A stretch of DNA of 64,000 nucleotides, taken from the NCBI GenBank assembly GCA_010405405.1, contig MU004233.1:1067122-1131121 (forward strand). The letters run 5' to 3'. Made by a program: the position numbers and the translations under genes. The notes beneath the pieces were generated by a model, which saw nothing but the letters and a program-made list of their open reading frames with translations, was not told the DNA's origin and did no database searches. Within the stretch, counting starts at the first letter, position 1, and each line of letters starts with the position of its first letter. Source of the DNA: Microthyrium microscopicum. Taxonomy: Eukaryota > Ascomycota > Dothideomycetes > Microthyriales > Microthyriaceae. This document shows, in pieces, positions 6,665-52,573 of the stretch.

Positions 6665-7236
6665 AGTCAACGCACAGATAAATTGATTACTGGAACCGGG
6701 TTTGCTATGGGCGCTGAATCTTATGGCCTTTTGCTCGTGGGCTTGTACCGAATACGGACCATCGCTTGACATAACTTGCAGAAGCCTGTCAAGATAGCCA
6801 TACTGATTTCGAGGATGGGAGTTTGAGACGGATCACAAAATTCTGGCGTAAAGCTCCGCATACTCTCCCCTATGTGCAATAAACAAAAAATAAATAAAAT
6901 GCTCTCAAATTGAGTATGGTCATGAAGAGATATGTGACTATGACAGCGACATAGGTGAAAAATTTGTACAATGAAAGGGCAGCCTGAGCAGTTCAGTAGA
7001 TGAATGAATTCAACTATGCCTTATCGAATGGTGAACAGAATCATGCTGAGCGATTCTAGTCTCTAGATCATGGCCTGATTGTCCGCCACACTCACATCTG
7101 TGGCAAATAAATTTGATATATTCGGAGAAGAGGGAACTTCTTAACAAACGTTTGACATGATTCCTTCATTATACTTCATGCTATGCTAACGCTCCAGAGC
7201 TTTTCATTCATCCCATCATGACGCCGCCACAGACAC
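6665..7236. other. Convergent 3' intergenic region
   Basis: This lies between the ISU1 stop and the RNA polymerase I subunit stop. It contains an A-rich stretch at about 6881-6900 (AATAAACAAAAAATAAATAA) that could serve as the ISU1 polyadenylation signal. No gene is seen. Confidence 0.5.
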
Positions 7237-20851: not shown

Positions 20852-20907
20852 CAGGATCAGTTTCCACTCCCCCCTCCCAGAGGCCCCCCCTATCCAGAGG
20901 CCCCCCC
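20852..20907 (+). repeat. MULE left terminal inverted repeat
   Basis: C-rich end that matches the reverse complement of 23556-23610 with only a few differences. It keeps high GC, unlike the interior. Confidence 0.85.
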
Positions 20908-23486
20908 AGCCACGCCAAAGGGCTTCAAGCCCAAGCTTTTAGTAGCAACGCCACCAAAAGCCTAGAATTAAAGCCTTCCAAGTCGGCATACTAATAGATC
21001 TATATTTACGCTTTATAGACGCAAGATTTAGCATCTAAAACGCATTTAGAACGCGTTAGTGAAGTAAAGATAAAGAAGACTTATAGATTCCATAGTTTTA
21101 TAAGTAATCACACTACTAGATTAGTTTTAAAGAGCCAAAGGCAATATAAATAAGATATTAAGATTCCTATTAGTCTTATTAGTTCACTAAAGCATCAATT
21201 TTGCCTTAAATTCTTTAAAAATACTACCCTAAGATAGCCAAAATATTAACACACTTAGTATTAAATTAGGTATTTAAATCAAAAGATAAAATACATACCG
21301 CTATAAAGAAGTTTACTATTTTGAAGCGCTTCTAATTAGGTACGATCAATACTAATAAGAAGAAGTATAAAATACGCTATAATTAAGCAAAAGGACGCCT
21401 TAAAGAGTACCCTTAGCGTACTAAATCTATCTTATAGGTAAATAGTAATAGCACTATAACCTAACAAATTAGTATACTTAATCCTAATAATATTTATACC
21501 TATAGAGAGCTTCCTCTACTACTATAATTAATTAGCTTGTAGGTAAAAACCATCATCGCCATACTTACTAAAGTAGAGAGTACTATCTTATTTCAAACGC
21601 TAGTTACTAATATATAAAATATACTTCAACGCGCAATAGAGTATAAACTAAGCGCTTAACAAATCTATAAGACTAAAAGGAAGCTATTTAAGAGGTTAAC
21701 TAACAACTTCTTAGATTCTTACCTTTAGTTTCCTTCTTATATTTAACGCTTAAAGAAGGCCAATCCCAACATGTTTATAAAGGTTAATTTAGTAAAGAAA
21801 GAGTAGTATAGACACGTATTTATCTACCCGCGCGTTAGTTAAACTTTATAAGAATATATACTTAAAATTATCTATTTAGACGCGTGCTATTATAAAGAAG
21901 ACTATAACTTACGTCTTATAATAGCTATAGGTATTAACGATAATAAGGAATTATTAATTTATACATAGGTAGTATTTAAAAGTAAATTAAACGAGTCTTA
22001 GAAGTAGTTCTATAGGTGCTTAGATAAAGCGATGCTAGGGATTAAGATTAGTAAAGAAGAAGGTAAAAAATATTTCTATTTACCTAAGGATCTTCCTATT
22101 AGCCTATTAGCTAGAATATCAAATATTCTAGCCCTTAGCAGCCTTAGCATATCCTATTAAACGTATTAAATATTATAACATTACAATCCTATAGCACTTT
22201 CTATACTTTTACATCTTTTTACTTTATCTAATTTACCCTATTTTTAGTACCTTATTCTACAATTCTTTTAGATTACGATAAAGGCCTTCAAAATACTATC
22301 CCTAAGATATTCAAAAATGCTAATTCTAAGTAGTGTGCATACTACCTATCCAAAAATCTTGCCAAAGTAGTTAGAATAACTAGAAGTAAACACTTTTTAA
22401 TATATATAAGCTATACCTCCTAAAATTAGTTCAACTTCTTCTTACAATAAGATTATTAGACCTACAGGCGTAAATTCTAGTTAATAATTAAATCCTATTC
22501 TCCTAAATAATAGGTACTTAAAGATTTTAAAAGTCTACAATATAGTATAATAACTTTAAACTATGTTAAATCTACTAATGCTACTATACTTCTTACGAAA
22601 GAGAATTACCCTCTTTTTATACTTAACGCTATTTAGAACTACATTATATAAAAGCGTATAAATTAAACCTATGCCGTTACCCTCTCCCTTAAGCGTTTAT
22701 TAACCTGCTATGTAATTTTATACTAGGCCCTTACATTACGTATATAAGACCTATTTTAAGAACATCTTAAGTTAAATAAGAAGTAATTCCTATCGTATAT
22801 AGTTAATTCCTAGGGTAATAGTAATAGCAACGTCTCTAAAGCTTTAGCTATTATTAGAATACGTAGAGAAGATTAGAATAACTTAAAGGATTATTGTATA
22901 GATCTTTATACTTATTCCTATAGCTATTTATGCTAGCAGAATAAGTTATTTCCCTACCTATACGTTGTAGTTGTTATTTAATATTTACGTAGAGATCCTA
23001 TAAAGTTTATAAATAGAATCTACTTCCTACGGACTATTAAGAAGTACTATCTCAACTTTAAAGAAAGTAAAGAAGATATAATTAATTGTACTATAAGTCC
23101 TATCTTAGTTCTTAACCTTAAATTTAACCCTAATCCCTCTCTTCTATCCCCTAAAATACTCAAAATTAAGACTTAGGGACTAAAATAAAAGAAGAGGAAG
23201 CTCGTTAGTAGTATTTATACTATACTTAAAAACGTTAACCAAAAGTATAGTTCCTATAGTAAGAAAGGACATAATTCTTAAGTCTATAAGATCTAGTAAT
23301 CACGCATATTTTAGTAAGTAAAGTTAGGTATCTTTAAGCTTTATTTAACACCCTTTTTAATAGAAATTAATATATTTTCAATACCAAATCTAAGGTCATA
23401 ATATAATCCTAAAGGATCCACATCCCTTCCTCTAGAGGCCCTCTAAATCGGCATCCAATTCAATACTAACTAATAACGCTATTACT

Positions 23487-23525
23487 AAAGCCAGCTTTTG
23501 TGTAGCGTCTCTACACAAAAGATAG
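23487..23525. repeat. Internal inverted repeat near the MULE right end
   Basis: CTTTTGTGTAG (23495-23505) and CTACACAAAAG (23511-23521) are perfect arms around a 5-nt loop. Pairing extends outward imperfectly to about 19 bp per arm. It is a subterminal palindrome, possibly a transposase site or a read-through block. Confidence 0.75.
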
Positions 23526-23555
23526 CTTTAGCCATGGCGCATCAGGATCCCTAAA

Positions 23556-23610
23556 GGGGGGTCTCTAGATAGGGGGGGCCTCTGGGAGGGGGGAGTGGAA
23601 ACTTCTCCTG
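23556..23610 (-). repeat. MULE right terminal inverted repeat
   Basis: G-rich on the plus strand, ending CTCCTG next to the right copy of the 10-bp target duplication (23611-23620). Confidence 0.85.
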
Positions 23611-33017: not shown

Positions 33018-33844
33018 ATCGACACTCTCCGTCGAGCTTGATAAATTTTCTTCTTTCTAACTCTGTATCTCTCTGTACATATATTTTACCAATAAAATCA
33101 GTCCTTGATTATTCTACTTTGTATGAATTCGAGATTATCGTGATTGTCCTGGTACGATAAATGTTTTGTACACTCTCGGATGAACATAATATCAGTCTCT
33201 GACGATTGATGAAGCTTATAGAATGCTACGAACGATAGGTAATAGTTGGAGGTGAACAATGCTTGACAATTAGAGATGAGTCTCAATTGTGCGTCATGCG
33301 TTCTTCATTTTTATCAACTAGTACAACTAGTTTTATTTTTAAGTTAAGCACTCGCCCTTCACCTTCGAGTATTCGGTATGGCTTGACTTTCTTATTGTCT
33401 ACTCTAAGCTACTCTCGTTGCAGAAAAAAAGTTTCTTTCTAAGTTGTCGGTCAGATGTGCTGCGCCACTGTCAGGGGCATTCAGCCTCGTCTCAAACAAT
33501 TAGGAAGTGGCGCTATAAAGCCGACTCCTCGAGGAGTTAAAGGGACTTGTAAAATCTGTCCGACCCAGAGTGTCGTTCTAGAGAACTGAGATCTCTCAAA
33601 TCCCTGACAAAGACAGTTCATTAAGTTGCGATGAGTCTGGTGTTGCTGGTTGTTCAGGAGGCCCAACGATGGAGTTGAGAGCATTTGGAAACTCTAGGAA
33701 CAAGAGGAGAGTAATAAGGTGAGCGACAAAATCAAAGGCCTTATGATTAAACACTTATAAAGGAGCATCCTATCCCACATTCTAACAAAGATTATAGACT
33801 TTCATATTCCATGCTTAATATTCGTGTGAGCAAGATGTGGCATA
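33018..33844. other. Intergenic to transposon boundary
   Basis: Non-coding by inspection. The last two bases (TA, 33843-33844) are the target duplication of the pogo-like element. Confidence 0.5.
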
Positions 33845-33926
33845 CCCATCGGTTAAGAACACGCTCACCCTAGGTAATTAGAGACAGCTCAGCACTAAGG
33901 ACAGCTTAACGCTAAATTACTACTAG
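33845..33926 (+). repeat. Left terminal inverted repeat of the pogo-like element
   Basis: Matches the reverse complement of 52490-52571. It contains two subterminal copies of a motif like GGACAGCTYARCGCTAA. It is AT-shifted compared with the right copy. Confidence 0.85.
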
Positions 33927-36161
33927 TAATATAATTATCTTATTACTATTCTATTAGATTTTATTATTAGCACCTAAAATTAATATAAGATATAATTTAA
34001 GATAAGCTTTAAATTTTATATTAATTTTAGCATTATAACTCTTTAAATAACTATTAAATAATATCTTAAAGTTAGTAACTTTAGGACTTAATTAGCTAAA
34101 AATATATAGAATTCTGACTATTTTTTATAGCTACTTAGTAACTATATATAGTATACTTTTTAAATTTTAACTAAAGTATATTTAGACCTAAAAGACTCTA
34201 TATCTTAGTTTTTAAATAATATTATTAACCTTTAAATTAGTAGTTATAATAAGTTAAATTCCCTAAGCTTAGGCCTTGTTAGTAGCTTCTTATTAGCTTT
34301 ACTACTTCGTAATAATTTTACTACTTTAACTATTTACTACTACTATAACTAAAAATTCTATTTCTATTATTATGCCTCTAAAATTAATTCTAAAGAAGCA
34401 GAAATATAAGCAGTACGCTACTAAAGAATATTTATTTAAAGATATTATTAAATTTTAGTATAAATATCCTAAGACAATATAGACTTAACTTATAAAGAAA
34501 TTTACCCCTTTATAGCTTAATTAAATATAGCGCTACTATTTTAAGATATTAAAATTACGTTTATAGCGTACTAAAACTAACTAAAAGCTTTCTAAAAAAG
34601 AAGAAAACGCGCTTATTTAATACTTTAATTTAATAGCTAAAATTTATATTCCTATTTACCTTAAGTTAATCTAAAAGGCTACTAATAAGTTATTATAATA
34701 AGATATTAAAGATTTAGATATAATTTTTTTTAAAAAACGACCTTAGATTAGATCTAAATAAGCTTATTGTTAGCTAAAGCGTAATAAATTTACTCTATAA
34801 TTTTAACCTACTATTAAAGCTATAAGGAAGTAAGCTATAAATAAGAATAATATTAAGCACTTTTATTAGAATTATAAAGATACTACTACTAAATATAATA
34901 TCTTAATTAAAGACTAATAGAATATAGATAAAATAGGTATATAGATTAACGTTAGAAGAGGTAAAGTAGTAGTTATGCCTAATAATTACGAGTTCTTTAG
35001 CTACTATTTTAACTATATTAAATCTCTTAGAGAGAGAGAATAAATAATATCTATAGAGGCGTATTTAGCTATAGGAAGAACTATAGATTCTTTACTAATT
35101 ATAAAGAGCAAAGTTATATAGCAAAAATAGTTTAATAGCCTTAAATTAGATAATATTACAATTAGTAAGTTATTAGACTTAAAAACGAGTATATTTACTA
35201 ACTAAATACCCTATAGTAGTCTTAGGATCTAGTTACGCTAATAATTACCTTAGATTTATCTAGATATAGTATTTTTAACGTCTTTTAAAGCAATATTAGC
35301 TAAAGAATTACCTACGCTAGAAGGCTTACTAGTAGCTCTTAATAATTAATAAATATAAAAGCTATTTTACCTTATAATTTATACTATACTACGAGCTAAA
35401 TAAGATTAAATTACTACTACTACTACTATATTTAACGCACTTCCTTTAACTATTAAATATTAGTATCTTTTAACCTTAGAAATATTAGTATTTAGAAGAA
35501 ATTAACGCCTATATTTATTAAGGAATTATTAATTTTAATTAATAATATCTTCTTAAAGCTATTAAGTATATTTAATCTAAAGCCTTTACTAAAAATAATA
35601 TTTAATTAGCCTAGAGACATATTAGTATAGTACTATTTAATCCTAAGTTAGTTCTTTATTAAATACCTATAGTAGATTCTTTAAAAGGGCTTCTACTATA
35701 CCTAAATTAGAATCCTACTATTAAATAATTTAGGAAGCATACTATAATACCTAAAGAAGTATTACCTAAGATCTAAAGCTCTCTATAATATCTAAAGCGT
35801 TTTAAATAATAAGTACATAAAATTAAGCGCTAGTAACAATCTTTAGTATTTTTAGTACTTTCTAAGATTCGTTAGTAAAGATAAAATAACCTAAAAACGT
35901 TTTTAAAGTGTATTTTAGTAAAGAATAACCTATAGATAATACTAATTAATTACTACTTTAATTCTTATCTTATAAGACTCTATAATAAGATAATAGGAAG
36001 TAAATCTTATAAATAGGTTTAAAAGGAAGAATTTATCTATTTTAGTAATATTAAAGGACGTAATATTACTAGTTTAGTAAATATACTTTTATACTAGCGT
36101 ACTATTAGGCTATACTTTAGTAATAAGTAGCTTTTTTACTAATTATACTTCTTTAATTATA

Positions 36162-36389
36162 TGTAAGGATCTAATAGGTATATAATTAAGTAAAGAGTAG
36201 ATAATATTTAATAATCTAGTATATAAAGAGAAAGAGAGAAGTAGAGTAGAATCTATACTAAGGAAAGAAGAGAGTAATACTTAGTAAATCCTTAGAGACG
36301 CTAGCCCTAATTAGGACTAGCGCTACTAAATCTTTATAAAGATCTAGCTTAATACTAAAGCTATTATACTTTAGTAAAGAATCCTTATA
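36162..36389 (-). repeat. Outer gypsy element: left LTR (3' LTR)
   Basis: 228 bp, direct repeat of 51366-51593, next to the polypurine-type stretch at about 36391-36405 (pyrimidine-rich on the plus strand). Confidence 0.85.
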
Positions 36390-36446
36390 TTACTCCTCTC
36401 TCTAAAACTAGTACTTTAAGCTACGTTCTAACCTATATTGTCTTAT

Positions 36447-36495
36447 TCTAGGCTAGGCTAGGCTAGTCTAGTCTAGTCTAGTCTAATCTAATCTA
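36447..36495. repeat. Pentanucleotide array in the outer gypsy element
   Basis: About ten CTAGG/CTAGT/CTAAT units lie just inside the 3' LTR. Read on the element's strand it is a GACTA-type array. Confidence 0.8.
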
Positions 36496-39400
36496 CTTTA
36501 TATCTAATAAAGTATTATCTATACCTTTTTATTATTCTATTATTTTCTAGCTTACTAAGGTAATTATCTAGATATTAATAAATCTAGATATTTTTAGAAT
36601 ACTCTAGTTTATAGCGCTAATAAGGTGCTAATAGTAGTATACTATAAATAAATAAATACTTTTATTCCTTTAACTAGTTATCTAGTAAACTATTGCTATT
36701 ATAGTTAGTAGAGTTAAATATATTAGATCTAATAATAGATAGTAACTACTTAGGGTTAGGGCTAGGCTTTATAGGATTATATTTATAGAAGTTATAAATT
36801 AGGTTTACTATATTCTTAAGGTCTTCCTATAGCTATTATAAAGGCGTATTATAACTTATTTATTTTATAAAGTATTCTAACTTCTTATAGGTACCTTTTT
36901 TATAGTAGCTATTAAGGATCTTATTAACTTACTATTCTTCTTCTTTTAGTACTTTACTTACTACTACTAGTAGAGGATTATACTAATATAGAAGCTCTAT
37001 ATTATTTATAATAGTATATAATAGCTAAATATAAAATATAAGGTATATCTTTATATACTTTAGTAGATTAAGTTTAAATATAATAGTATTAAGCTTTTTT
37101 AGAATATAGAAAGGCTTTATACTTTTACTATTAAGGGTTTTAGATATATATATTATATAGTAGTTTTAAATATCTAGATATACCTAGTCTTTAGGTTAAA
37201 GATCTAATACTATATATTAGTACTTATTAGCTTATTTAGCTTATTATACTTATACCTATATTAGCTATTCTATAAGATAATTATATATATCTTTATAGTT
37301 TTCCTATATTTTATTAGTATCTTTTTATTCTTATTAAGCTAAAAAGAAGAAGTATTAATATAGTACTAGTACTTAGCAAGCTAATTTAAGTCTAGATTTA
37401 AGAAGGAAGCTATATTAGATCTTAAAGAGAGTAAAGCCTATTATTATACTAATAGTAGAGTTAATAGTAAATTCTATAAATAATAGTAACTAAACCTAAT
37501 TATCCTAATCCTAGTTAATAAAAGTACAAAGATATTACTTAAGTACTAATATTAAGATCTTTATAATCTTATTAGTTTATAGGTACTATATAGTACTTAG
37601 CTATAGTACTATATTTACTTAATTATATAATTATTTCTAAAACGCTAAAGTAAACTATAACTCTTTATCTAATAGAATTATACTTAGTTATTTTATTAAC
37701 TTCTAAACTTAATTAATAAATATAAGAACTATTATCTTAATAGAAAAATTAGGTAGAGAAATAAAGTATTATTAGTAAGTATATTAATCTATAATAACTA
37801 TAATATAATAAAAAGTAATATCTAAATAAGTATATTAAGGTAGAGAAATAGTAAAGTTAATTAAGATATTTAACTATGCTTATTTTAATAGAGGAAAGGA
37901 CTAAAGAAGTCCTTACTTTTTTTAGCAAATTAGTTTAGTAAAGATATATTTATATCTTAAGACGTACTTCTTTATATCTTATAATATATATAGCTACTAG
38001 TAATCTTACTAAAGTTAGTAATAAGTAGTTACTAAGTCTTTATAGTTTATAACTTTATATTAATAGGTATATATTATAGCGTAATAATAAAGTTTACCTT
38101 TAAGTATTAGAATATATTAGTAATAAAGGACTAGGCCCTCTACTAAGATTATATAGTTACTAAGCTTAATATCTTATTATTCTAAGATACTAAAGAGGAG
38201 ATATAATAATTCTTCTTACTTAGTATAGCAAATAGTATTTAGTAATATATTATTTTTACTTACTTCTATTATTTTTATTAGAAACTAATTAATATTAAAA
38301 TCTAGGGATTTATTAAGCTTTAAAAAGTTGCTCTTAGGCACGTTCTTAGGCTAGTCCTTATTACTAAGGTTTACTATTATAGAGTTTTTTAATAACTCTC
38401 CTACTCTAGTAAGAAAATCTAACTTATTTATAATAATAGTAGTAATTTATATAAGAAATAATATAATAGGTTTAACTAGTAGGTATACTATCTTAATTAT
38501 ATATATAGTATTAAACTAGTAAAGAAAAAGTAGAGAATATACTTAGTATTAAATATATAGATTATTATTACTTTAAGGAAGATCTTAAGAATACTAAGTT
38601 AGTATATCTACTTTTCTATTAGCTAGTCTAGGATAATATATAATCTTAAAGTAGAACTATAATAAAAACTTTACCTAGCGTATTTAATAGTATAAAAGCT
38701 TCTTAGTAGTTATAAATATTTATAGATTTTAATAATTAGAGAATACCTTAATAAGATTATTAGTAGAGAATAACTTTAGTTTCTATTTCTTAAAAGTATA
38801 TATAATTATAAGAAGCTCTTTATTATAAATATTATAATTATACTTAGTTAAAGATATCTTCTTTAATAGGAACGCTATAGAATATAGATCTTTATTATTA
38901 TCCTTTTAAGATAATACCCTTACGTATATTTAGTCTAATATATTAGTTTTAAGCTAAGTCTCCTTAGTATAGTTAAAGTATTTTAAAATAGGCGCTATTA
39001 TAAACGTATTTTTTAGTTTATTAAACGCCTAGTTCTTAGAACCTCTAACATCCTATAGAAAAATAGTTACTACGTCTTTCTTTATTAAAGTTATAAAAGG
39101 TATAGTAATTTCTAAGTATCCTTATATAAAATAATAATAAAAGTTAGTAAAATTAAGGAAGGCCTAAATATCTTTTATATATAATAGTTATTCCTACTCT
39201 AGTACTAATTCTATCTTCGCTAAGTTTATTTTAATATCTTCTATAGTAATAATTAGCCCTAGATATTTTACTTCTATAGTAGTAAACTCTAATTTATAGA
39301 TATTAAGATATAAACTAGCTTTCTTTAGCTTATTAAGTACTAAATATATATAAGTTATATATTCTTTATATATCTTACTAAAAATAAGAATATTGTCTAT

Positions 39401-39640
39401 ATAGACTATAGTAAAGTTATTAAGATATTTTATTAGGATATAGTTAATATATACTTAAAAAGTACCTAGAGTACTTATTAATCTAAAGGGTATAATAATA
39501 AACTTATAGAGACTATATTATATAAAGAAAGCTATTTTATACTTATCTCTAAGTTTAATTTATATTTACTTATAGACTATAATAACATTAAATTTACTAT
39601 AGTATTATACTTAATATAGCTTTATTAAAGTATTAAGAAG

Positions 39641-39866
39641 TATAATAATTCCTCTTTATAGGCTTTATAGTAGTATTGTAAGAGAGATCTTGTTGTAAGA
39701 TTATGTACTAGACTTAAGAAGGTTAGCACGCCTAAGGATTTGCTAAGTAGACTTACTTTCCTTATAGATCTATAGCTCTTCTAGATCTTTTTCTCTCTTT
39801 TTCCTATTTATAGATTTTAGAATATAATCTAATTATTTACTTACTTAAGTTCTATAGCTTGTTATA
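39641..39866 (+). repeat. Inner gypsy element: 5' LTR
   Basis: 226 bp, direct repeat of 47067-47292. More AT-shifted than its partner. Confidence 0.85.
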
Positions 39867-42800
39867 TAATTTATAAATCTTTTAAATATCTATATACTTA
39901 TACTATGCACCCTAGAATTTACTTCTAAAGAAGTACCTATATAGATTAATATTCTACGTATATAGTCTTAGACCCTATTAAAGATTCTTTATAGATTTAC
40001 TAAATCTATTAGCTTTACTAACCTTTTATCTAATTAGAGCATTAGGATTCTCTAATACTCTTTAATCTACTAATAATCTAAGTATTAATTGCTCTTTATC
40101 CTTAGTTTTATAGAATACTAAAGTTTATCTTTTATACTACTACTAAATATCTATAATTATACTTAATATACTTACTATTAAAATACGTTAAATAAATAAG
40201 CGTTCTCTCTTAGTATCCTTCTTTATTATTTATAACTATAGCTAATAAGGCTTCTACCTAATAGACCTAAGTTAATAGCTATATAGCTTACTTACTATCC
40301 CTAGTTACTTATACTTAGCCTTATAATTAGCGTTAATTCTTATCTCTTATACATTCATATTACCTATCTTTATTATATTACTTTTCTACTATATATACTA
40401 AATATTAAAGTAGACTTAATACTTAGGATATAGTATAACTAGATACTACCTAGAAAGTAGTAAATTTAGTAGAGAACGTCTTAGGACTATTAAAATTACT
40501 AGAACTAGACTTAAGAGCGTTATTAGAAGATAAAGATAAGTTAGAAGATAATTATTTATTAAAATAAGGCTATAAAAATAAAGAGACTAAAGCATTAAAA
40601 GACGCCTCTTAAAATACTAGTTAAATAACTTTACTAAACTAAATAAATATAAGAAATAATTAACTACTAGCTCCTTTTTAACTTAATAATAATATTAGAC
40701 TTTCTCTTAGAATATATAAATAGCTAATAAAACTACGCTAATAAGCTAAAGGCTCTAGAGTACTACTTATATTAATATTTTACTACTCTATAGTAGTAAA
40801 CTTTAATTAATTAGTTACTCTAATTATTAATAAGAACCCTCTAATCTTTTAAGCTACTTAAGTATAAAAGATACTTAGTAAAGAAGATAATAAGCTAAAG
40901 GATATAGAAATATACTTCTATTGTAAAGAAAAATAATTAGACTTCTATTACTACTTTTACTACTTAATTAAATTAAGTATAGACTTAGAACGTCTATTAA
41001 AAGAAAAGTTAACGCTAGATAACTTAGTTATATAGCTTTATGCCTTTTTATTAGCCTTCTAAATCATAGCTTATTTCTTTAAAATTAAGTAGAATATAAA
41101 TACTTATAATATAGACTTAATCTATACTTTCTAAGAAGAAGCTTTAGAAGCTTAAGGAGAAATATAAGACTTAGCTAAAACTAATAATAAATACGCAAAG
41201 TAGATTACTTACCTTAAAGCGTAAATCTAAGATAATGCTATTATTCTTAAGAAAGTAGTAACTACTTATTAAAAAGCATAAGAACTATAATATAATAATA
41301 ATCTACTTAAGAAAGTACTTACTACTTATATTAATAAGATTAGTAAATACTATAAAGCTCTATAGAAGAAGGTAAATAAAGCTACTATTCTTTAAGCCTA
41401 AGTTAATATCCTTTAAAAGAAACTTTTAGCTACTAAAGTAACTAATCCCTATCTTAATTATAATAAGTTAGTAAATAATAATTTATTTTACTAGACTTTT
41501 TTAGCTTAAGATATAGACTAACCTAACTTAAATATATCTTTAAGGGTACTAAACTTATATTAAATTACTTCCTTCTCTAACCTTAACTTAGTTAGTAATA
41601 CTTCTCTCTTTAAGATATAGGGTAATAAGCCTTTACTCTTCTTAAGAAAGAATAAGTAGAAATACTATACTTAGAAAGGTAAAGTATTAGATTACTTTAA
41701 TAATAATATATAAGTCTATTTTATAAAAGCTTCTAAGATTTAAGTTATTTAAGAAGTAATAAAAGATTAAGCGTTTAGTACTATTAATAAGTAGAGTAAC
41801 TATAAGTTAACTAACTTATATTTATTTATAGTAGAGATATAGTCTAATCTAGACTATAAATATAGTATTAAAGATAGCTATATTATTGTTAAGACTTAGC
41901 TTAAAAGTTAAGAAGCTATAATAAAGCCTACTAAGAAGCTTAAATAATTCCTAGCTTACTTCTTAGAAAACTTATAAAAAGCTAAGCTTAGTAATTAAGA
42001 TAAGATTATTAAAATGCGTTCTCTTCTACTCCTAAAGTTTATAAAGAGAATACTCTTTATAGAATTAAAAATATTTATAGACTTCCTTAAGAGCTTATAT
42101 ACTATAGCTTATTATATTAAATACGTTCTCTTTACTAATTTATAAAGCTATAATAATAATAATCGTCTAGTAGCTAAGAGTAGTAAATAGAAACTAAAGT
42201 TTAACTACTTTTTAGATATTTATAATACCTTAAAGGCTAATAACTATTATATAAAGTATAGAGAGAAAGGCTATAGCTATTAATATAACTTAGTACTATA
42301 TAAAGATAGAGATACTCTTTTAGATACTAAAATATAACTAAAGGTTACTATTATTATTATAGAGTTTGTTACTATCTATAATTAAATTATTACTTAATCT
42401 TCTTAGTCCCTAACTATAAAGGATAATTATAATAAGTATAATTATAGTAATAATATAGAAAACTAAAAGCTCCTTTATAAAGATATATAAAGGAGCTAAA
42501 TAAGTAAGAAGCGTATAATTAATAACGAAAGAAAGAAGAACTTAATCCTAAGCTAGTTCTCTCTAAAGAATAAATCTAATATAAGGTTAATAAGACTATC
42601 TAGTGCCTAGAAGGTAATCTTTAATAAGCATTATTTCTAAAGCCTATTATATTTAATAATACTAAACTAGCTATTATTAAGATATCTCTTATCTTTATAG
42701 TATATAATTTTTATCTCTAAGAAGTAGCTACTATACTTATAATAAGTAACTAATAGACTACTTCTAGTATTAAATTCTCTCTAAGATAAGGCTACTACTT

Positions 42801-45800
42801 AAAAATTAATATCCTTATAGATACTAGTAGTAGAGTAATAGAAATTATTTACCTTAACTTTATTAAATAATACGAGATCTTTACTATTAATCTCTTTGCT
42901 TCTTAAATTATATAATTAGCTAATAATAAGGCTATTACGAAAGTTAATAAAGCTACTATAGTTAATATTTATTTAGGAAGGTATATTAAATAAATCTGCT
43001 ACTTTATTATAAACGTTACTAGCTATAACCTTATCCTTAGTAACCCTTAAATTAACTTCTATAAGGTTATTCTTAAAGGAGGTAAGAAGTAAATCTACTT
43101 TAATTTAGACTATTACTTTATATACTACTTATTAGTAGGCTACCTAATCTTAGTAGATTATAAGGGCTACTTAGTTAATCTAATAGACTCTTACTTTAAA
43201 AATATTACTATAATTAGCGCTATTACTTTTATTAAGTTATTAGAATAAGGCTAATAATTTAGCAAAATCTAGCTTAATAACTTTAAAGATAGAAAGAAAA
43301 AGAAACTTCTAAATCTAGATCTTATATTAAAAGAAGACGTTACTATTAACTTAGGCAAAATCTTATTTAAGAATTTTAAAAAGTAGTAAGAGAAGTATAA
43401 TAAGTCTTCTTTCTTATAAGAAGAGATTCTTAAATACTTACTAAAGAAATATTACTATTATATAGACGTCTTTAACTTAAAATTAGATAATAAACTTATA
43501 CTATATTATAGCAAATAGGATTACTTTATTAATATTATCTCTAATACTATAATCCCTAAATACTACTATAATAGCCTAAGTTACTAGGAATTCCTTATTA
43601 TTAAATAATATATTAATTAGATACTTAGTTAAGATTAAGTTTAAGTTAGTAAGTTATATTACGTTATATTAATACTATATATATATAAGCTAGGAGAAGG
43701 AATTTAAGTTTATATTAATTATTATAAACTTAATAAGATTATATAAAAGAATTATAATATTCCTCTATAGCTACTAGAAATACTTACTTATATCTATTAT
43801 GTAAAATACTTCTTTAAATTTAACGTTATTATTATCTTTATATATATCTATATTAAACCTAGTAATAAATATAAAATTATATTCTTAACTTATTATAAAT
43901 TATATAAATTTAAAGTTATACTCTTTAGCTTTACTAAAGCTCTAGGGACCTTTTAAGCTTATCTTAACTATATTTTAATTAATTACCTAGATAACTTTAT
44001 TATAAGCTATATAGATAATCTATTAGTCTTTAGTAATATTAAAGCTAGCTATACTACTTATATTTACTTAGTCCTAAATGTAATAGATAAAGTAGGATTA
44101 TACTTAAATATTTAGAAGTATAAATTTAATACTTAATAAGTTAAATACCTTAGCCTAATTATTACTACTAAAGGTATTAAGATAAACTTAGAAAAGATTT
44201 AAAGCGTAGTTAACTAATAACGTTCTTCTTTTATAAAGAACGTTTAAGCTTTCCTTAGCTTTACTAACTTCTATTACTAATTTATTCTTAAATATTTAAA
44301 GACTATAGTATTATTAATAATACTTATAAAGAAGGATGCTATAATAATCTTTCCTTAGGACTTTAATAGGCTAGAGGAATATATATTTAAGAAGCTAAAG
44401 TAAGACTTTATATCTACTAAGATATTACGTTACTTTAATTATATAAAAGAAATATAACTAGAGATAGACGCCTTAAATTAGATTTATACTATAGTTCTTT
44501 CTTAAAAAGGTAATAATAGGAAGCTTTACTTAGTTATATATTTCTTAAAGAAGATAACCCTAGTAGAGTATAATTATAATATTTATAATAAAGAGCTTTT
44601 AGCTATTATCTACGTATTTAAAGAATAGGAACTAGAGCTATTTAGCTCTATTAACTTTATTTAAGTATTTTTTAATTACTATAATCTTTAGACGTTTATA
44701 ATAATAAAACGTCTTTCTTAATAATAAGCTAGATAGGCTAAGTTCCTCTCCTAATTTTACTTTAAGATAAAGTACTATCTAGGTATAGCTAATAAAAAGG
44801 TAGATACCTTTACTTATTAGTTATAAGATATTTTATAAAGTAATAATAACCCTTATATCTCTTAATAGGTTTAACCTTTACTATTCCTATACTAATTTAA
44901 TATAAAATACGTAGTAAAGCTAGCTATATTACTTATTAAACTTGCTTACTTCTTAATACTATACTTAGCTATTATTACTTAAGATAAGTTAGATATTTCT
45001 AATCTTATAGGTAAGCTACTTAATCCTATAGGAGAGTCTCTTAGTAATAATAAGACGCCTAAAGGTAAGCTACTTAATCTCTTAAGAGATAACTTATCCC
45101 TAGATTTTAATAGCGACTAGTTCTTATAGAATATTATAAATATAGCAAAGTATAACAAAATAATAATTACTATTCGCTATACTAAAACTAACTACTAGCT
45201 TTTCTTACCTTTTAGTACTTTAGAATAAGAGTAAATTAAGCTTAGAGACTATATAGTAGCTACTAATAAGATAATTCTTTATTATAACTAGATCTTTATT
45301 CCTTAAGGTAAGCTTTAGTATTATACTATATAAAGTACGTATAGTTATAAAGCTATAAACTATAGTGAAGTAGTAATAACTTACTACTACTTATAAGAAG
45401 ATTACTAGTAGCCTAAAATATTATAAGATATTAAGAGCTTTATTAAAGGCTATAAATATATATTTACTAAACCTATCTATTAAAAAAAGTAAGGCTTCTT
45501 ATATTAATTTTCTCTCCTTAAGCGCGTATAGTCTAATATTTTTATTAACTTTACTATTTTACTACCTTACTATTTATACTAAAGTATAATCTACTAGTAC
45601 GTTATAGTAGTTATTAATTACTATATATAGACTTAATGTTTTATCTTGCTACTAAACTTATTTATAGACTTAATAGTACTAGCCTTTATTAACTATATAT
45701 AGAAACTTATTAGTTAGCTATTAATAATTCTTTTAGACTATAGTAGCTAATTTACCTTTATATTCTAGAAGTACTTATATAAATATATAGGTATAATACT

Positions 45801-46945
45801 TTATCTTAGTATAATATTTTATCCTAAGACTAATAATATAATAGAAATCTTAGTTATAGTACTTAAGTAATTCTTATACGCGTTTATTAACTAAGATTAA
45901 AATAACTAGGTAGCTCTTCTACTCTTTACTAAATTTATAGTTAATTTTATTATAAATGCTACTATAGGAGTTATACCCTTTAAAGCTTAAAATAGATTTA
46001 ATCCTTAATTAGGCCTTAAGTCCTTATATTGCTTCCTAAAACCTATAAACGCTTCTATAGTTACTAATAAGGAAGCTATTAATATAGATATAATATAGAA
46101 GGGTTGTACTAAGATATATAATTATTTAATAGAGTAATTAATCTAGGTATAAGCTTAATAAGTAGAATATACTAACTACTATTACTATATAGCTCTAGAC
46201 TTGTTACTAGGTAACTAAGTTTGCTTAAATATATAGAACTACCCTACTTTACATTCTTTAAAGACTTTAGATAATAAGAATATAGGTCCCTTCTATATAA
46301 TTAAGAAGATTAATACTATTACTTATAAACTTAATCTCTACTTTTCTATAAAGATATATAATATTTTCTACGCCTAGGTTCTCTACTATATTATAGATAA
46401 CACTAAGCTACTTAAGTATACTAATCTATTACTAGTAGTTATTAGAGAAACTATAGATAATAATAAATAGTCTATTAATACTATTATTAATAGCTACTTT
46501 ACTAGTTAATATAAAAAGCTATAATATAAGATTAAGTATACTAGTTATAATAAAGCTAAATAGTATAATTAAATAGCTACTAAGAACGTACTAAAGCTTA
46601 TTACTAAGTTTTATACTTAATACCTTAGTAAGCTAAGCTTATATCTTACTTAGATACTACTAATATTAGAGCCTACTAGTAATAATATTAATTATAAATT
46701 TAATAGCGTTCTTACTAATTAGGAAGAGTAAATAATTATACTACTAATTTCTTTATATTAATAGAACTATTAACTACTAGACTACTAGGACTTAAGAACT
46801 AAAGTATTCTAAGAATATCTTAGGGTTTATTAATACTTCTTAATAGTTACCTTAGTAGGCTAGAGGTTAAGATACTCTAAATAACTAGTAAGGTTAGTAC
46901 TATACTATAAAAAGATTAAAATATTATTTATTACTAAAAGTTTAT

Positions 46946-46987
46946 TAGACTAGACTAAACTAGACTAGACTAGACTAGACTAGACTA
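46946..46987. repeat. Pentanucleotide array in the inner gypsy element
   Basis: About eight GACTA units about 80 bp before the 3' LTR, the same unit and relative place as in the outer element. Confidence 0.8.
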
Positions 46988-47066
46988 AATTAAAATAGAA
47001 TAGATTAAGAAAGTAGATATAATTAGTAGTCTATAGCCTAAAGAGCTATACTAAAGAGGGAGGTTA

Positions 47067-47292
47067 TATAATAATTCTTCTTTATAGGCTTTATAGTAGT
47101 ATTATAAGAGAGATCTTATTATAAGATTACGTACTAGACCTAAGGAGATTAGCGTGCTTAAGAATTTACTAAGTAGACTTACTTCCCTTATAGATCTATA
47201 GCTCTTCTAGATCTTCTTCTCTCTCTCTCTCGTTTATAGATTCTAGAATACAATCTAATTATTTGCTTACTTAAGTTCTATAGCTCGTCACA
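47067..47292 (+). repeat. Inner gypsy element: 3' LTR
   Basis: Ends GCTCGTCACA before the AGAAG duplication; preceded by the polypurine tract. Confidence 0.85.
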
Positions 47293-50200
47293 AGAAGTAA
47301 TAGTAGTATATTCTTATTTCTATAAGAGATCTTATTAAGGCCTTAATAATTAATATAGACTTAAATATTACTACTAAGTTTATATATATATAGTATTAGT
47401 ATTATAAAATATAACTTTAATAGATATATAAAACTCTTTTCTAATAAACCTTCTAGATACTATTTAATAATAATATTCTACTTTAGGTTTATACTAATAC
47501 TATATCGTTTTAGTATTATAGTATCTAGAATTAAATTAATAGAATAATTAAATCCTAAGTAGTAGGGTAGTAATTTATCTACTTTTTATAGATTAAAGAC
47601 TTTAAGATAGTAATAGAATTTCTTTAGGATTATTTTATAGAGTTCTTTATAAGTAAGATAAAGTCGTTTATACTTCTTTTACTACTTCTTAAAGTTATAC
47701 TCTAAGATAGTAGATAAGTTAATTACTATATTATCTATAAAGAAGATTAGGTTTAATATCTCTAAGAGATTAAATAGTTTTAGTTCTTCTATTAAAGGGT
47801 TCTTTAGTAAAGGATTATTTAGTAGCTTCTTTTCTTTAGGCTTAGTAAAGTCTTTAGAATAAAGAACTTCTACTTTCTATCCTTATTACTTTACTAATAT
47901 TATTATAATATATATAAATATAGCTATTACTTTTTTATCCTCTAAAAGTTTTATAATAAAATTATATTAACCCTAAGTATTAACTTTAATAGGGCGCTAT
48001 ATTAGAATATAGTTATAAAGGTAATAATAAGAGTTAAATATAATAGTCTTTTTACCTCCTTTTAAGTAGACTTTATAAAGTTAGATCTAAGGATTACTAA
48101 GAATAAGATTATAAGTAGCTACTTCTATAACGAAATAATATATTTATTTAATATAACTCTTAATATATATAATAACTAGTATAGCTTTATTAATTTTAAT
48201 AATAGTCTTTCTATTTATAAGCTTTACTAAATATAGTTAGTTAAGTTATATTTTTAGTATATTATACTATTTAATAAAGTAGATATAAATAATTCTAAGT
48301 ATACTATTACTAATATTAATTAGTACGTTATACTTCTTAAAGGCATTAGCCTCTAGAATTAATATATTCCTAACTATTATCTATTATAGTTTTATAAAAG
48401 ATACGTAGTTAATATTATTTAATAGTAGCTATCCTAGATTAATTACTACTATAGATAGTTAAATAACGTAATATACTTCTAGTAGTAGGCTTAGATTTGC
48501 CTATTAGGTTTCTAGCTCTTAAATCCTATCTTAAATCTAGCCTAACTCTTACTTTTTTTACTAATTATATACTTCTTATAGGTTTAGCTCCTCCTTATAT
48601 TAGTAAGGTAGAGTATTTAGTTTAAATACTTATAAAAGTATATATTAAGTATCTTTATTTATAAAGTATTTGCTATAGCTATAAGTATAATAAAAACCTT
48701 TAGTTAAATCTTATTATTTATTAAATAAGCCTTCTATCTATAAGGAATATTCTTCTATTCTAAGGTATAATTCTTCTTACTATATTTAGGACACCTATTC
48801 TATACTTATAAAGCTAAAAAGATATTATTAGGATAATATAAACGTTTACTATTATTCTAATTATTATTATTATAGGCGCCTCTATTCTAGTTTTCTAAAT
48901 TATTACTTAAGTTATTATTATTAATATTGCTATTATTAGAGTTATTAGTATTAGAATTATTATTATTATTCTATTTTAGGAAGTTTAGGTCTTATTCTAC
49001 ATTATATAGATACGTATAAAGTTCTAGATAAGTCTTAATATCTTATTCTATTAAAAAGCGAATAAACTATTCTAAGAAAAATAAATATAGTTTAGTAACT
49101 TTATTATAATCTTTTAGGTCTACGTCTTTAGTCTTTTCTAAAAAGTAGCTTAAGAATTCTATTAGGTCTTCTATAGTTTTTATCTTAGTATCTACTAAAT
49201 AAAGCTATTACTTTATAATATTATATCTATTTATTACTTTATTATAAGTATTTAGGTCCTTCTATATATTATTAATAGTAAGGTAAGGGCTTATAGAGTT
49301 ATAGCTTAAGTAACGTAATATTAAAGACTATACTAGATTATTTAGGTTATTATAAATAAACTAAATCTTCTTCTTATTAGTTAGGTAAAACTAAGTATCT
49401 TCTTCTAGAATATTTAATACTTAATCCTTTTATTAATAGTATTTACTCTTATCCTTACTATTATACTATTTAACTATATAATAAGATTAACTAATATATA
49501 AAGTAATATTATTTAAGAGGTTAAACCCTACTTTTAAAAAAAGTAATATAAAATATATTTATATTAGGTTAGGTTAAGTAGCTATAAGTTAATATAGTAT
49601 ATTACTAAGTAATTTAGTATTTTTTTTATCTCTTAGGCGTATAAAAGCTAGTATATTATAAGGTTTTATAAAAGTTAGAAGATTTTATATTTACTATTCT
49701 ATAATATAAAGACGTTAAGTAAGGGATTTATTTTTAGTATTAAGGTTTATAATAATAGTATTCTAAAATTATATTTACTTATAATATTCTTAGAATTATT
49801 TTATATAATATACTAACTCTACTTTTATAGAAGTAGTATAATTTTTTATTACCTAAATATTATACTATAGTTAATAATAATTAGAAGTAAGTTTATAGTA
49901 ATTAATTATACTAATTTAAAGTTCTTTAACTTTTAAGAAGAGCTTATTTATTTCTATTTTATAGTTAACTATAAAGCCTTTTAGGTTATCTACTTTATTT
50001 ATAAAATCTTAAATCTCTTCTAAAGACTTAGCATTTTAGATATTACTCTTTTATAATTTATTATAGTAAAATTAGTAGCGTACTACTATAGCTTAGTTTA
50101 TAGCTAAGGTAGCGTAAATTTAATTAAATAAAAGTTAAGGATCTTTTTATATAACTTTCTACTTTAGCTCTTAAGTATTATAAATTAGATAATAATCTTT

Positions 50201-51365
50201 AAATATCTTAGTAGTAGAATTAAGTTCTTAATAATAAAATAGTAATAATAAGTTTAAGAAACCTTCTAGTATAGCTACTTTTAGATCTTTATAGGCTTAT
50301 ATTTAGAAAGGGCCTTAAAAGACTTAGAAGAACATAATACGTACTATATTATTAACTACTAGGTAGTTATTTTAGAAAGCTAGAAGAACCTCCTTATAAT
50401 TATTATTTTAGAGCTATATTTCCTATAACTAGACTAATATAATAAGATAGATTTCTTTAAATACCTTTTCTTTTTTTACTTCTTATATATTTTTATAAAA
50501 AGCTAAAGGTATTATTAAAGTAACTAGTTCTACTAAGGGCATAGTAAATACTATAATTTTAATTAGTTATAAAAGTTTACTACTAGGTATATACTAAATA
50601 GGTAATAGGATTAGCTTCTAGTTTATTTAACTATAAGTAAATAAATTAAAGAGTAAAAGGTTATTATCTTTATTAGAATTAGTATAAGATAATTAATACT
50701 TACTCTTTTCTTATTAAGAAGTCTAAATAATAGCTTATATAGAGTCTTATATATCTACTACTACTTTCTTTATAAATAAGCCTTTAGGATCTTAATCCTA
50801 ATAGTAGCTAATAACTAATATATAGCAATTCTAAGAAGGGCCTAAAACTATTTTATCTTAGTATTAAGGAAATATAAACTATGATTAAGAGCAAGTAGTT
50901 ACGTTAAGACTTAGAGACGCTAAGAGAGAAAATTCTTTAAGAGAGTCTATAGTTTCGTTAATAAATAGCTACGTAGAGATAATAATAAGTAATAATAATT
51001 AAATAATTTCTTAATTACTAGAAATAAATAGATTAATAAATTAAGAGTAATTAGAATATAGATTAATAGTATAGAGAGAGGTAAAAGAGTAAAGGTTCTA
51101 TATAGCTAAGTAGAAGAGTTCTAAGAGCTTAGACTACTATAAGATCTAAGTATTTACGTTAAATACCTTATTAAAGATAATTAATTAGTATTTTTAGAAG
51201 GTAGTAAAGATATACTACTTAATTATATTAAGAAGTCTATAAATAAGAATATATATAAGCTATTTCTTAAGTATAAGTTCTAAAATCTAAGAGCGCTAAT
51301 TCCTAAAAATAAATATATAAATAATTTTAAAGTTAATTTTTTAGTTTAATAGGTACGCTAGATTA

Positions 51366-51593
51366 TATAAGGATCTAATAGGTATATAATTAAGCAAAGG
51401 GTAGATAATATTTAATAATCTAGTATATAAAGAAAGAGAGAGAAATAAAGTAGAATCTACGCTAAGAGAAAAAGAGGATAATGCTTAGTAAATCCTTAGA
51501 GACGCTAGCCCTAATTAGGATTAGCGCTGCTAGATCTTTATAAAGATCTAGCTTAATACTAAAGCTATTATGCTTTAGTAAGGAATCCTTATA
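51366..51593 (-). repeat. Outer gypsy element: right LTR (5' LTR)
   Basis: Partner of 36162-36389. Contains a perfect 24-bp palindrome at 51529-51552 centred on TTTATAAA, preceded by a near-palindrome around 51503-51526. Confidence 0.85.
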
Positions 51594-52489
51594 TTATACT
51601 TATCTATAGTTCTTTTAATATTCTTTAATATAAATTCTATTTAAATAGGCTAATAAGGATTTTAATAATACGCTAGTATAGTATATTAAATAATAGAAAG
51701 CTATACTTAAAATTGCATCTTAATAGCTTATAGAGGACAATAAACCTAAAGTTATTAAAGTATCTTAACTATCTATTAAAGTAAAGATATCTTAGCCTAA
51801 AAAGAGGCGTACTAAAGTAAAGAAAGAGGTAATTCTTAAAGTCTTAGGGAAGGCTAAAAAGGATTATTATCTTATAAAGCGCTAGCGTAAAGAATAGCTC
51901 TATCTTAATAGATTTTTTAGTAAATTATAGCGAGATTACTTTAAAAGCTATCTAAATACTATAAATTCTTAATATTCTAAATATAATTACGAGTAAGATA
52001 CGCTTCTAGAGTTATCTAAATTTATACTTATTAATTTATAACTTTCTACTACTTCTATAATTCCTTTGCTAATAAATAGTTATAATCTTATAGAAGCTAA
52101 TTACTATAATAGAATTAGTTAAATAGATTTTAGTTTAAGTAATAAAGATAAAGAGGAAAATACTATAATAGAAGACTAAATCGTTAGAGTAGCCGCCTAA
52201 ACTATAAAGATCTATAAAGCTAAAGAGCGCGCAACTTAAATATAAGAATCGTAGTAAAATTTAAAATCTATTTAATAGAGATATTCCTATTTTAGTATTA
52301 AAATATAAAGATTTAATTATTTTATAGTATTTAACTTATAATTATTACTAAAAAAGATTACTCCTTAAAATATAATATTAATTACTAAAAATTAAACTAT
52401 AAGTAGATTAATACTATAAAAATACTTAGTAGAAGTTGCATTAAATAATATTATGTAGTTGTCAAATTATTAATTAATTAGTGAGCCTG

Positions 52490-52571
52490 TGGTAATAGAT
52501 CTAGCGTTGAGCTGTCCTTAGCGCTAAGCTGTCCCCGATCACCTGGGGTGAGCGTGTTCTTAACCGATGGG
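52490..52571 (-). repeat. Right terminal inverted repeat of the pogo-like element
   Basis: Better preserved and clearly more GC-rich than the left copy. It shows two subterminal GGACAGCTYARCGCTAA-like motifs in inverted orientation. Confidence 0.85.
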
Positions 52572-52573
52572 TA

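Follow-up and report, generated by a model that had tools for sequence, protein, structure and literature searches.

In the 64,000-nucleotide stretch of Microthyrium microscopicum DNA analysed here (assembly GCA_010405405.1, contig MU004233.1, positions 1,067,122 to 1,131,121 of the forward strand; hereafter the window), three transposable elements lie one inside the other: a DNA transposon bounded by terminal inverted repeats (TIRs; 33845..52571, plus strand) contains a Ty3/gypsy element with long terminal repeats (LTRs; 36162..51593, minus strand), which itself contains a second LTR retrotransposon (39641..47292, plus strand). This stack is read as the product of three successive nested insertions and of mutation of the repeat-induced point mutation (RIP) type or a RIP-like type, an account to which a probability of about 0.93 is given. 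The TIR transposon would first have inserted at a TA dinucleotide between gene-bearing stretches, the Ty3/gypsy element would then have entered it on the minus strand with a 5-bp TTATA duplication, and the second LTR element would have followed inside this gypsy, on the plus strand, with a 5-bp AGAAG duplication. A repeat-confined C-to-T process would have turned the elements into an 18.7-kb island with a GC content of about 22%.

Anatomy of the stack and order of insertion

An initial annotation of this DNA had proposed three elements, each inside the previous one, over positions 33845-52573, that is the outermost element plus its right TA, and this anatomy is borne out to the base by the end alignments and the target-site duplications (TSDs). 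The outermost element is flanked by TA on the left (33843..33844) and on the right (52572..52573), and its inverted ends of about 79-80 bp (33845..33923, plus strand; 52492..52571, minus strand) are 88% identical over 81 alignment columns including the TA, with one 1-base gap and with transitions accounting for all 10 differences. The outer gypsy is framed by TTATA (36157..36161 and 51594..51598) and has two LTRs of 228 bp, both on the minus strand, the left one (36162..36389) being its 3' LTR and the right one (51366..51593) its 5' LTR; they are identical at 208/228 positions and differ by 20 transitions, no transversion and no gap. The inner element, of 7652 bp, is framed by AGAAG (39636..39640 and 47293..47297) and has plus-strand 5' (39641..39866) and 3' (47067..47292) LTRs of 226 bp, identical at 200/226 positions, with 26 transitions, no transversion and no gap. 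Collinearity of the LTR pairs, set beforehand as the refuting test, was thus found for both, and the two ends at each level belong to one family, since they recur together in other family copies. Besides, other direct repeats in the stretch reach only 41-47 bp, so that matches of 226-228 bp lie far beyond chance. The small duplications are perfect on both sides despite the AT shift, as had been claimed, which is unsurprising for TTATA and AGAAG because both lack CpA and TpG, the most mutated site.

The minus-strand assignment of the outer gypsy agrees with a reverse transcriptase (RT) remnant (39248..39562, minus strand) that contains three TAA stops and matches RVT_1 with 34.3 bits, over the cut-off, and with a polypurine stretch (AGAGAGAGGAG on the minus strand, 36393..36403). 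The open piece 39197-39454 matches both RVT_1 and the Ty3 RT 4ol8 (E 6.7e-05), as well as 7q5b, and carries N in place of the second D of the YLDD of the Ty3 protein. An RT match is also found on the corresponding strand in seven sister copies, and about 3 kb remains downstream of the RT. In the same line, the family fits the LTR ends of Ty3/gypsy elements, with collinear LTRs and TG...CA-type ends kept in some copies and partly mutated to TA in others. Once the inner element and one copy of its TSD are subtracted, the outer gypsy measures 7775 bp (about 7.8 kb); its LTRs lie 7547 bp apart from start to start, a distance of 7529-7564 bp in six of nine other pairs and of about 6.1, 9.4 and 16.3 kb in the rest. 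A solo LTR of this family, with TATAG on both sides, is found at L028 (C7:707366-707579; L0xx and L1xx denote loci of the same genome, G000, and C its contigs). Elsewhere, stop-free genes of the chromodomain gypsy type exist in this genome, according to the domain matches (RT, integrase and chromodomain) of two open frames of 1443 and 1267 amino acids (C2:1274184-1277126 and C2:942887-945667), one integrase match being under the cut-off.

The plus-strand orientation of the inner element is likewise upheld, by the polypurine stretch AAAGAGGGAGG (47053..47063, plus strand) that precedes its right LTR and by the RVT_1 matches which 5 of the 13 other copies of the family contain on the same strand; these are matches to the general RVT_1 model, the comparison with Ty3 having been made for the outer element only. 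Its LTRs lie 7426 bp apart from start to start, and 10 of the 13 other pairs fall within 7423-7438 bp (the rest at 7165, 7237 and 15158 bp), so that a fourth nesting level is not needed. In the longest of these pairs (L091, L092; C6:874434-889592), CTAAA flanks both ends, and the distance of 15.2 kb corresponds to about 7.7 kb of extra DNA inside.

Copies of the outermost transposon were collected by match to its first 301 bases, which gave five, including the window copy: the others are L049 (C7), L050 (C2), L051 (C11) and L052 (C16), L050-L052 forming a subfamily of their own, with 70-74% identity to L049 and to the window copy. The uninterrupted L049, of 3293 bp, fits the size of the window copy minus its insert (about 3.29 kb). 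The label "pogo-like" given by the initial annotation is likely, short of proven: TA stands on both sides in 5/5 copies, while the remnant of a DDE_1-type transposase (35297..35575, plus strand, read through stops) gives weak support, with E 0.00088 and 19.3 bits for a cut-off of 22. The same stretch gives E 0.00096 in L052 and 0.91 in L050, all under the Pfam cut-off. Reading through L049 and L052 in six frames recovered no transposase in the former and a weak one in the latter, and none of the domains listed for the two is the CENP-B-like helix-turn-helix expected of pogo/Fot1-like elements. A sub-cut-off match to DUF1315 in another frame of L052 (E 0.00036) was taken for chance. Judged by its sequence features, the outermost element is probably a pogo/Fot1-like member of Tc1/mariner. 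A 155-bp match to this transposon also touches L053 (C1:281500-286500), 5 kb of DNA whose GC content of 0.12-0.18 is below that of the stack.

The order of insertion, from DNA transposon to minus-strand gypsy to plus-strand element, is implied by the nesting alone, and for its two inner steps there is confirmation from sister copies. When the flanks of the outer gypsy are joined, the insertion point is spanned by 4/4 sister copies of the DNA transposon, L049 aligning over 600/600 bases at 85% and L050, L051 and L052 at about 72%. The inner insertion point, sampled at nine equivalent places in outer-gypsy copies (L056-L064), is read through at seven, L063 aligning over 34 bases only and L058 giving no match. 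These results also bear on the idea that the DNA element and the gypsies arrived together, as a composite formed elsewhere. Outer TIRs can in principle mobilise the DNA they enclose, as is well established, and cut-and-paste movement of a composite would still fit the data; no positive evidence for it was found among the copies, no second copy carries these insertions, all four other copies span the outer gypsy's insertion point, and the one with an insert of its own, L051, holds a different one of about 2 kb at another place. Joint arrival is therefore considered very improbable, and three separate insertions are retained.

Repeat-confined transitions

The edges of the AT-rich island coincide with the outermost TIRs within about 100 bp. 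GC content per kb is 0.19-0.25 over 34001-52000, where (CA+TG)/(AC+GT) is at most 0.14, and the first ten bins of 100 bp starting at 33945 lie at 0.15-0.27. Outside the element, the values are 0.34-0.54 over the 500 bp that precede 33845 and 0.39-0.52 over the 800 bp that follow its right end. Where L049 has kept a C, the proportion lost in the window copy is 0.76 at CpA, 0.51 at CpG, 0.19 at CpC and 0.17 at CpT; the corresponding values for L051 compared with L052 are 0.82, 0.57, 0.12 and 0.08, and these two copies differ by 290 transitions and a single transversion. The same holds for the LTRs: the 21 full pairs, over 4726 columns, show 534 transitions and no transversion, after setting aside two outer-family pairs whose LTRs are truncated or rearranged, one pair that is partly N, and the solo LTR. 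As all divergence consists of transitions, it measures the mutation process and not age; a molecular clock based on LTRs would be misleading here, and LTR divergence cannot date RIP relative to insertion. Repeat-confined C-to-T transitions with a preference for CpA are thus observed in the stack, and the process behind them is read from this pattern as RIP or RIP-like.

Ordinary old age, through neutral decay or relaxed repair, has also been weighed as the source of the AT shift. It would be in keeping with the fact that the stack retains no open frame of at least 90 amino acids, and with the 48 transversions which, beside 410 transitions, separate the window copy from L049 at 86% identity. 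Against it stand the 534 transitions and 0 transversions of the LTR pairs, the strong bias towards CpA, with CpG next, and the match between the limits of the AT shift and the ends of the element, which make ageing hardly credible as the cause. As regards the agent of a RIP-like process, four loci with a C5-DNA-methyltransferase domain occur in the genome, and one of them, which combines it with a BAH domain, matches PDB 9baq at 1.7e-102; enzymes of the kind linked to fungal RIP and DNA methylation are therefore present, and these homologues may carry out the mutation. One such domain, in a 2126-amino-acid frame, lies about 14 kb past the end of the window (L096; C4:1144994-1145938), the other three loci being elsewhere.

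Several observations weigh against the overall account of nested insertions and RIP-like mutation. In terms of element identity, the DDE_1 scores are sub-cut-off and no DDE_1 match was found in two of the five copies of the DNA transposon (L049 and L051), and a genome-wide DDE_1 search gave five matches, none of them in this family; no RT was found for the window copy of the inner element by comparison with Pfam and PDB; and none of the 4 integrase (rve) matches and none of the 12 chromodomain matches listed falls within the paired copies of the two gypsy families, a chromodomain being a feature that could account for targeting. In terms of mutation, the transversions that separate the window copy from L049 indicate that the DNA-element family also holds older divergence, the two outer-family pairs set aside from the LTR count contain 7 and 11 transversions and have no TSD, and RIP in the strict sense, tied to a sexual cycle and to rid, is not demonstrable from sequence. 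Five other open pieces of the stack had no Pfam match, and the single inner-element piece that was compared had no match in PDB.

Target duplications, landing sites and the timing of mutation

Further copies of each family with duplications of their own, which the initial annotation had suggested looking for, do exist. The outer-gypsy set comprises 11 units, namely 10 LTR pairs and one solo LTR (two weak matches among 23 were set aside), of which nine have a perfect 5-bp TSD; in the two that lack one, an LTR is truncated or rearranged. In the inner family, 13/14 pairs have a perfect TSD and the remaining one differs by one C/T; these pairs represent 28 of at least 40 LTRs, the other 12 being unpaired or outside the set. 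Taken together, 22/25 gypsy TSDs are perfect, one shows one C/T and two are lacking.

Both 500-bp flanks have a GC content of at most 0.31 in all 23 TSD-bearing gypsy units, a value below which only 2 of 20 genome points fell (points at round coordinates of our choosing). Around the five DNA-transposon copies, the ten flanks range from 0.32 to 0.49. The DNA transposons thus lie mostly in ordinary DNA and the gypsies in AT-rich DNA, and gypsy integration would favour DNA that is already mutated. Selection against insertions near genes, or spreading of mutation, could contribute to these AT-rich flanks. That they arise as a whole from post-insertion spread of mutation, or from loss of gene-hitting copies, rather than from choice of AT-rich targets, is judged unlikely from the 46 flanks of the 23 units, read in 250-bp bins out to 1250 bp (3/46 with fewer than five bins). 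Eight of them contain a bin above 0.32, one being the window's right flank, whose bins reach the TIR, and GC content is back to 0.40 after 250 bp in the right flank of L016 and to 0.46 after 500 bp in the left flank of L086, which speaks for spread or loss; besides, the elements of Mycosphaerella graminicola are described, in the part of the source drawn on here, as having no obvious insertion preference (PMC4522978). On the other hand, no bin read exceeds 0.32 in 38/46 flanks, the flanks of the DNA-transposon copies show no such spreading, and in the window the gypsies are flanked by recognisable other transposons.

The two 5-bp duplications of the window show letters of mutated appearance on either side, which suggests that their targets had been mutated before insertion. 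At the outer point, the sequence is CTATA in L049, and its first base is C in L050-L052 as well, with TTATA on both sides in the window. At the inner point, the seven sisters read AGAAG (2), GGAAG (3), GAGAG (1) and GAAAG (1), with AGAAG on both sides in the window, which suggests that the target originally had G at its first three bases. In the simplest reading, the T of the outer target and the As of the inner one would have been present before duplication. Six sisters were sampled for each of two further inner-family insertions: CTTCT/CTTCT corresponds to CTTCT in three and CTCCT in three (from 28 other matches), and GGTAG/GGTAG to GGTAG in three, GATAG in two and AGTAG in one (from 15). 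Finally, a 7.6-kb insertion of an LTR-like family other than those of the window (L124/L125; C2:2291594, C2:2299168) is flanked by ATGAG/ATGAG in a TIR element of the kind found at window 20859-23603, a site that reads ATAAG in the window and four other sisters and ATGAG in one; since TpG survives on both sides, this target was unmutated at that position both before and after insertion.

In these five insertions, the two TSD copies agree at 8/8 variable sites, for which P is about 0.02 if the copies mutated independently (a rough value from smoothed frequencies). Over all TSDs, 1/30 G/C sites is discordant, where context-matched LTR rates predict 4.5 (P 0.05); the discordant site belongs to L072/L071, for which there are no sister data, and is outside the eight. 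The unmatched comparison of TSDs with LTRs (1/30 vs 534/1830, p 0.0008) was discarded, being inflated by dinucleotide context. Four further sites are uninformative as to mutation order: the CTATT of an inner-family copy in a TIR element of the 20859-23603 kind is shared by the closest sisters of that element, L122 and L123, and the TAATA of the outer-family copy L012/L019 by its sister; the relatives of L075/L076 at the site are all distant, and L088 has a single-copy flank. The TSD states, which are thin evidence, support alternating insertion and RIP, short of proof, and RIP may have occurred between insertions. In a wider scheme, DNA transposons would seed AT-rich islands in gene-rich DNA and gypsies would enter almost only islands already subjected to RIP, in repeated cycles in which the old DNA hardly mutates further, the newcomer does, and the TSDs record the timing of RIP. 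This scheme is tentative, with odds that seem somewhat unfavourable. Among the titles and openings of abstracts listed in searches of the open literature, none describes TSD states as a means of ordering RIP and insertion. At this locus, the order of insertion and that of mutation are legible independently of each other; should the TSD reading prove valid across the genome, RIP could be dated relative to each insertion from the duplicated targets. Whether fungal gypsies are targeted to RIP-mutated, presumably heterochromatic, DNA can also be tested here.

The element at window 20859-23603 likewise has TIRs and RIP-type mutations; it is about 2.75 kb long, with the ends AGTTTCCACTCCCCCCTCCCAGAGG. 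It has five near-complete sisters and two that are broken by insertions of about 5-8 kb. One sister on the window's contig (C4:1355315-1370951) is apparently broken twice, by an inner-family copy (CTATT) and by about 5.4 kb of other DNA, and represents a further multi-part stack. At C5:1828124-1829089, the match is limited to the two 45-bp ends, which are oppositely oriented with under 1 kb between them; this may be a short relative with an internal deletion, resembling a miniature inverted-repeat transposable element.

Comparison with known systems

The outermost element resembles pogo/Fot1-like members of Tc1/mariner in its TA on both sides of every copy, its long TIRs and its DDE_1-like remnant, and is unlike them in that its 3.3 kb exceeds Fot1, which is roughly 2 kb, and in that its transposase match is under the cut-off. 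The outer gypsy is like Ty3/gypsy elements in its RT related to that of Ty3 (4ol8, 7q5b), located mid-element, its 5-bp TSD and the polypurine stretch before its 3' LTR; as a difference, no integrase or chromodomain is recognised, among the matches listed, in the mutated copies of the window's families.

RIP signatures have been surveyed broadly (PMC12543289). As far as the part of the source used here goes, the G of the TpG end has become A in some copies of the RIP-mutated LTR family crapaud of Podospora (PMC10787394), and the same change is seen in some copies of both gypsy families here; unlike the present stack, the crapaud account concerns LTR subfamilies and not the order of nesting (PMC10787394). 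A close description is that of Mycosphaerella graminicola, for which the accessible part of the report gives 78 putative nested clusters, in which the primary insertions are mainly LTR elements and the base elements include DNA transposons, with verified TSDs mostly of 5 bp, a reduced GC content and a CpA-to-TpA bias, and names further fungi (PMC4522978). The present stack is likewise nested, flanked by TSDs, low in GC, biased towards CpA and based on a DNA transposon; unlike what that report describes, all 23 TSD-bearing units here lie in AT-rich DNA. Other species and other families are concerned, the comparison being one of descriptions (PMC4522978). Since nested RIP-like clusters with TSDs have already been published in other fungi, the stack is a well-preserved, clean case of a known type.

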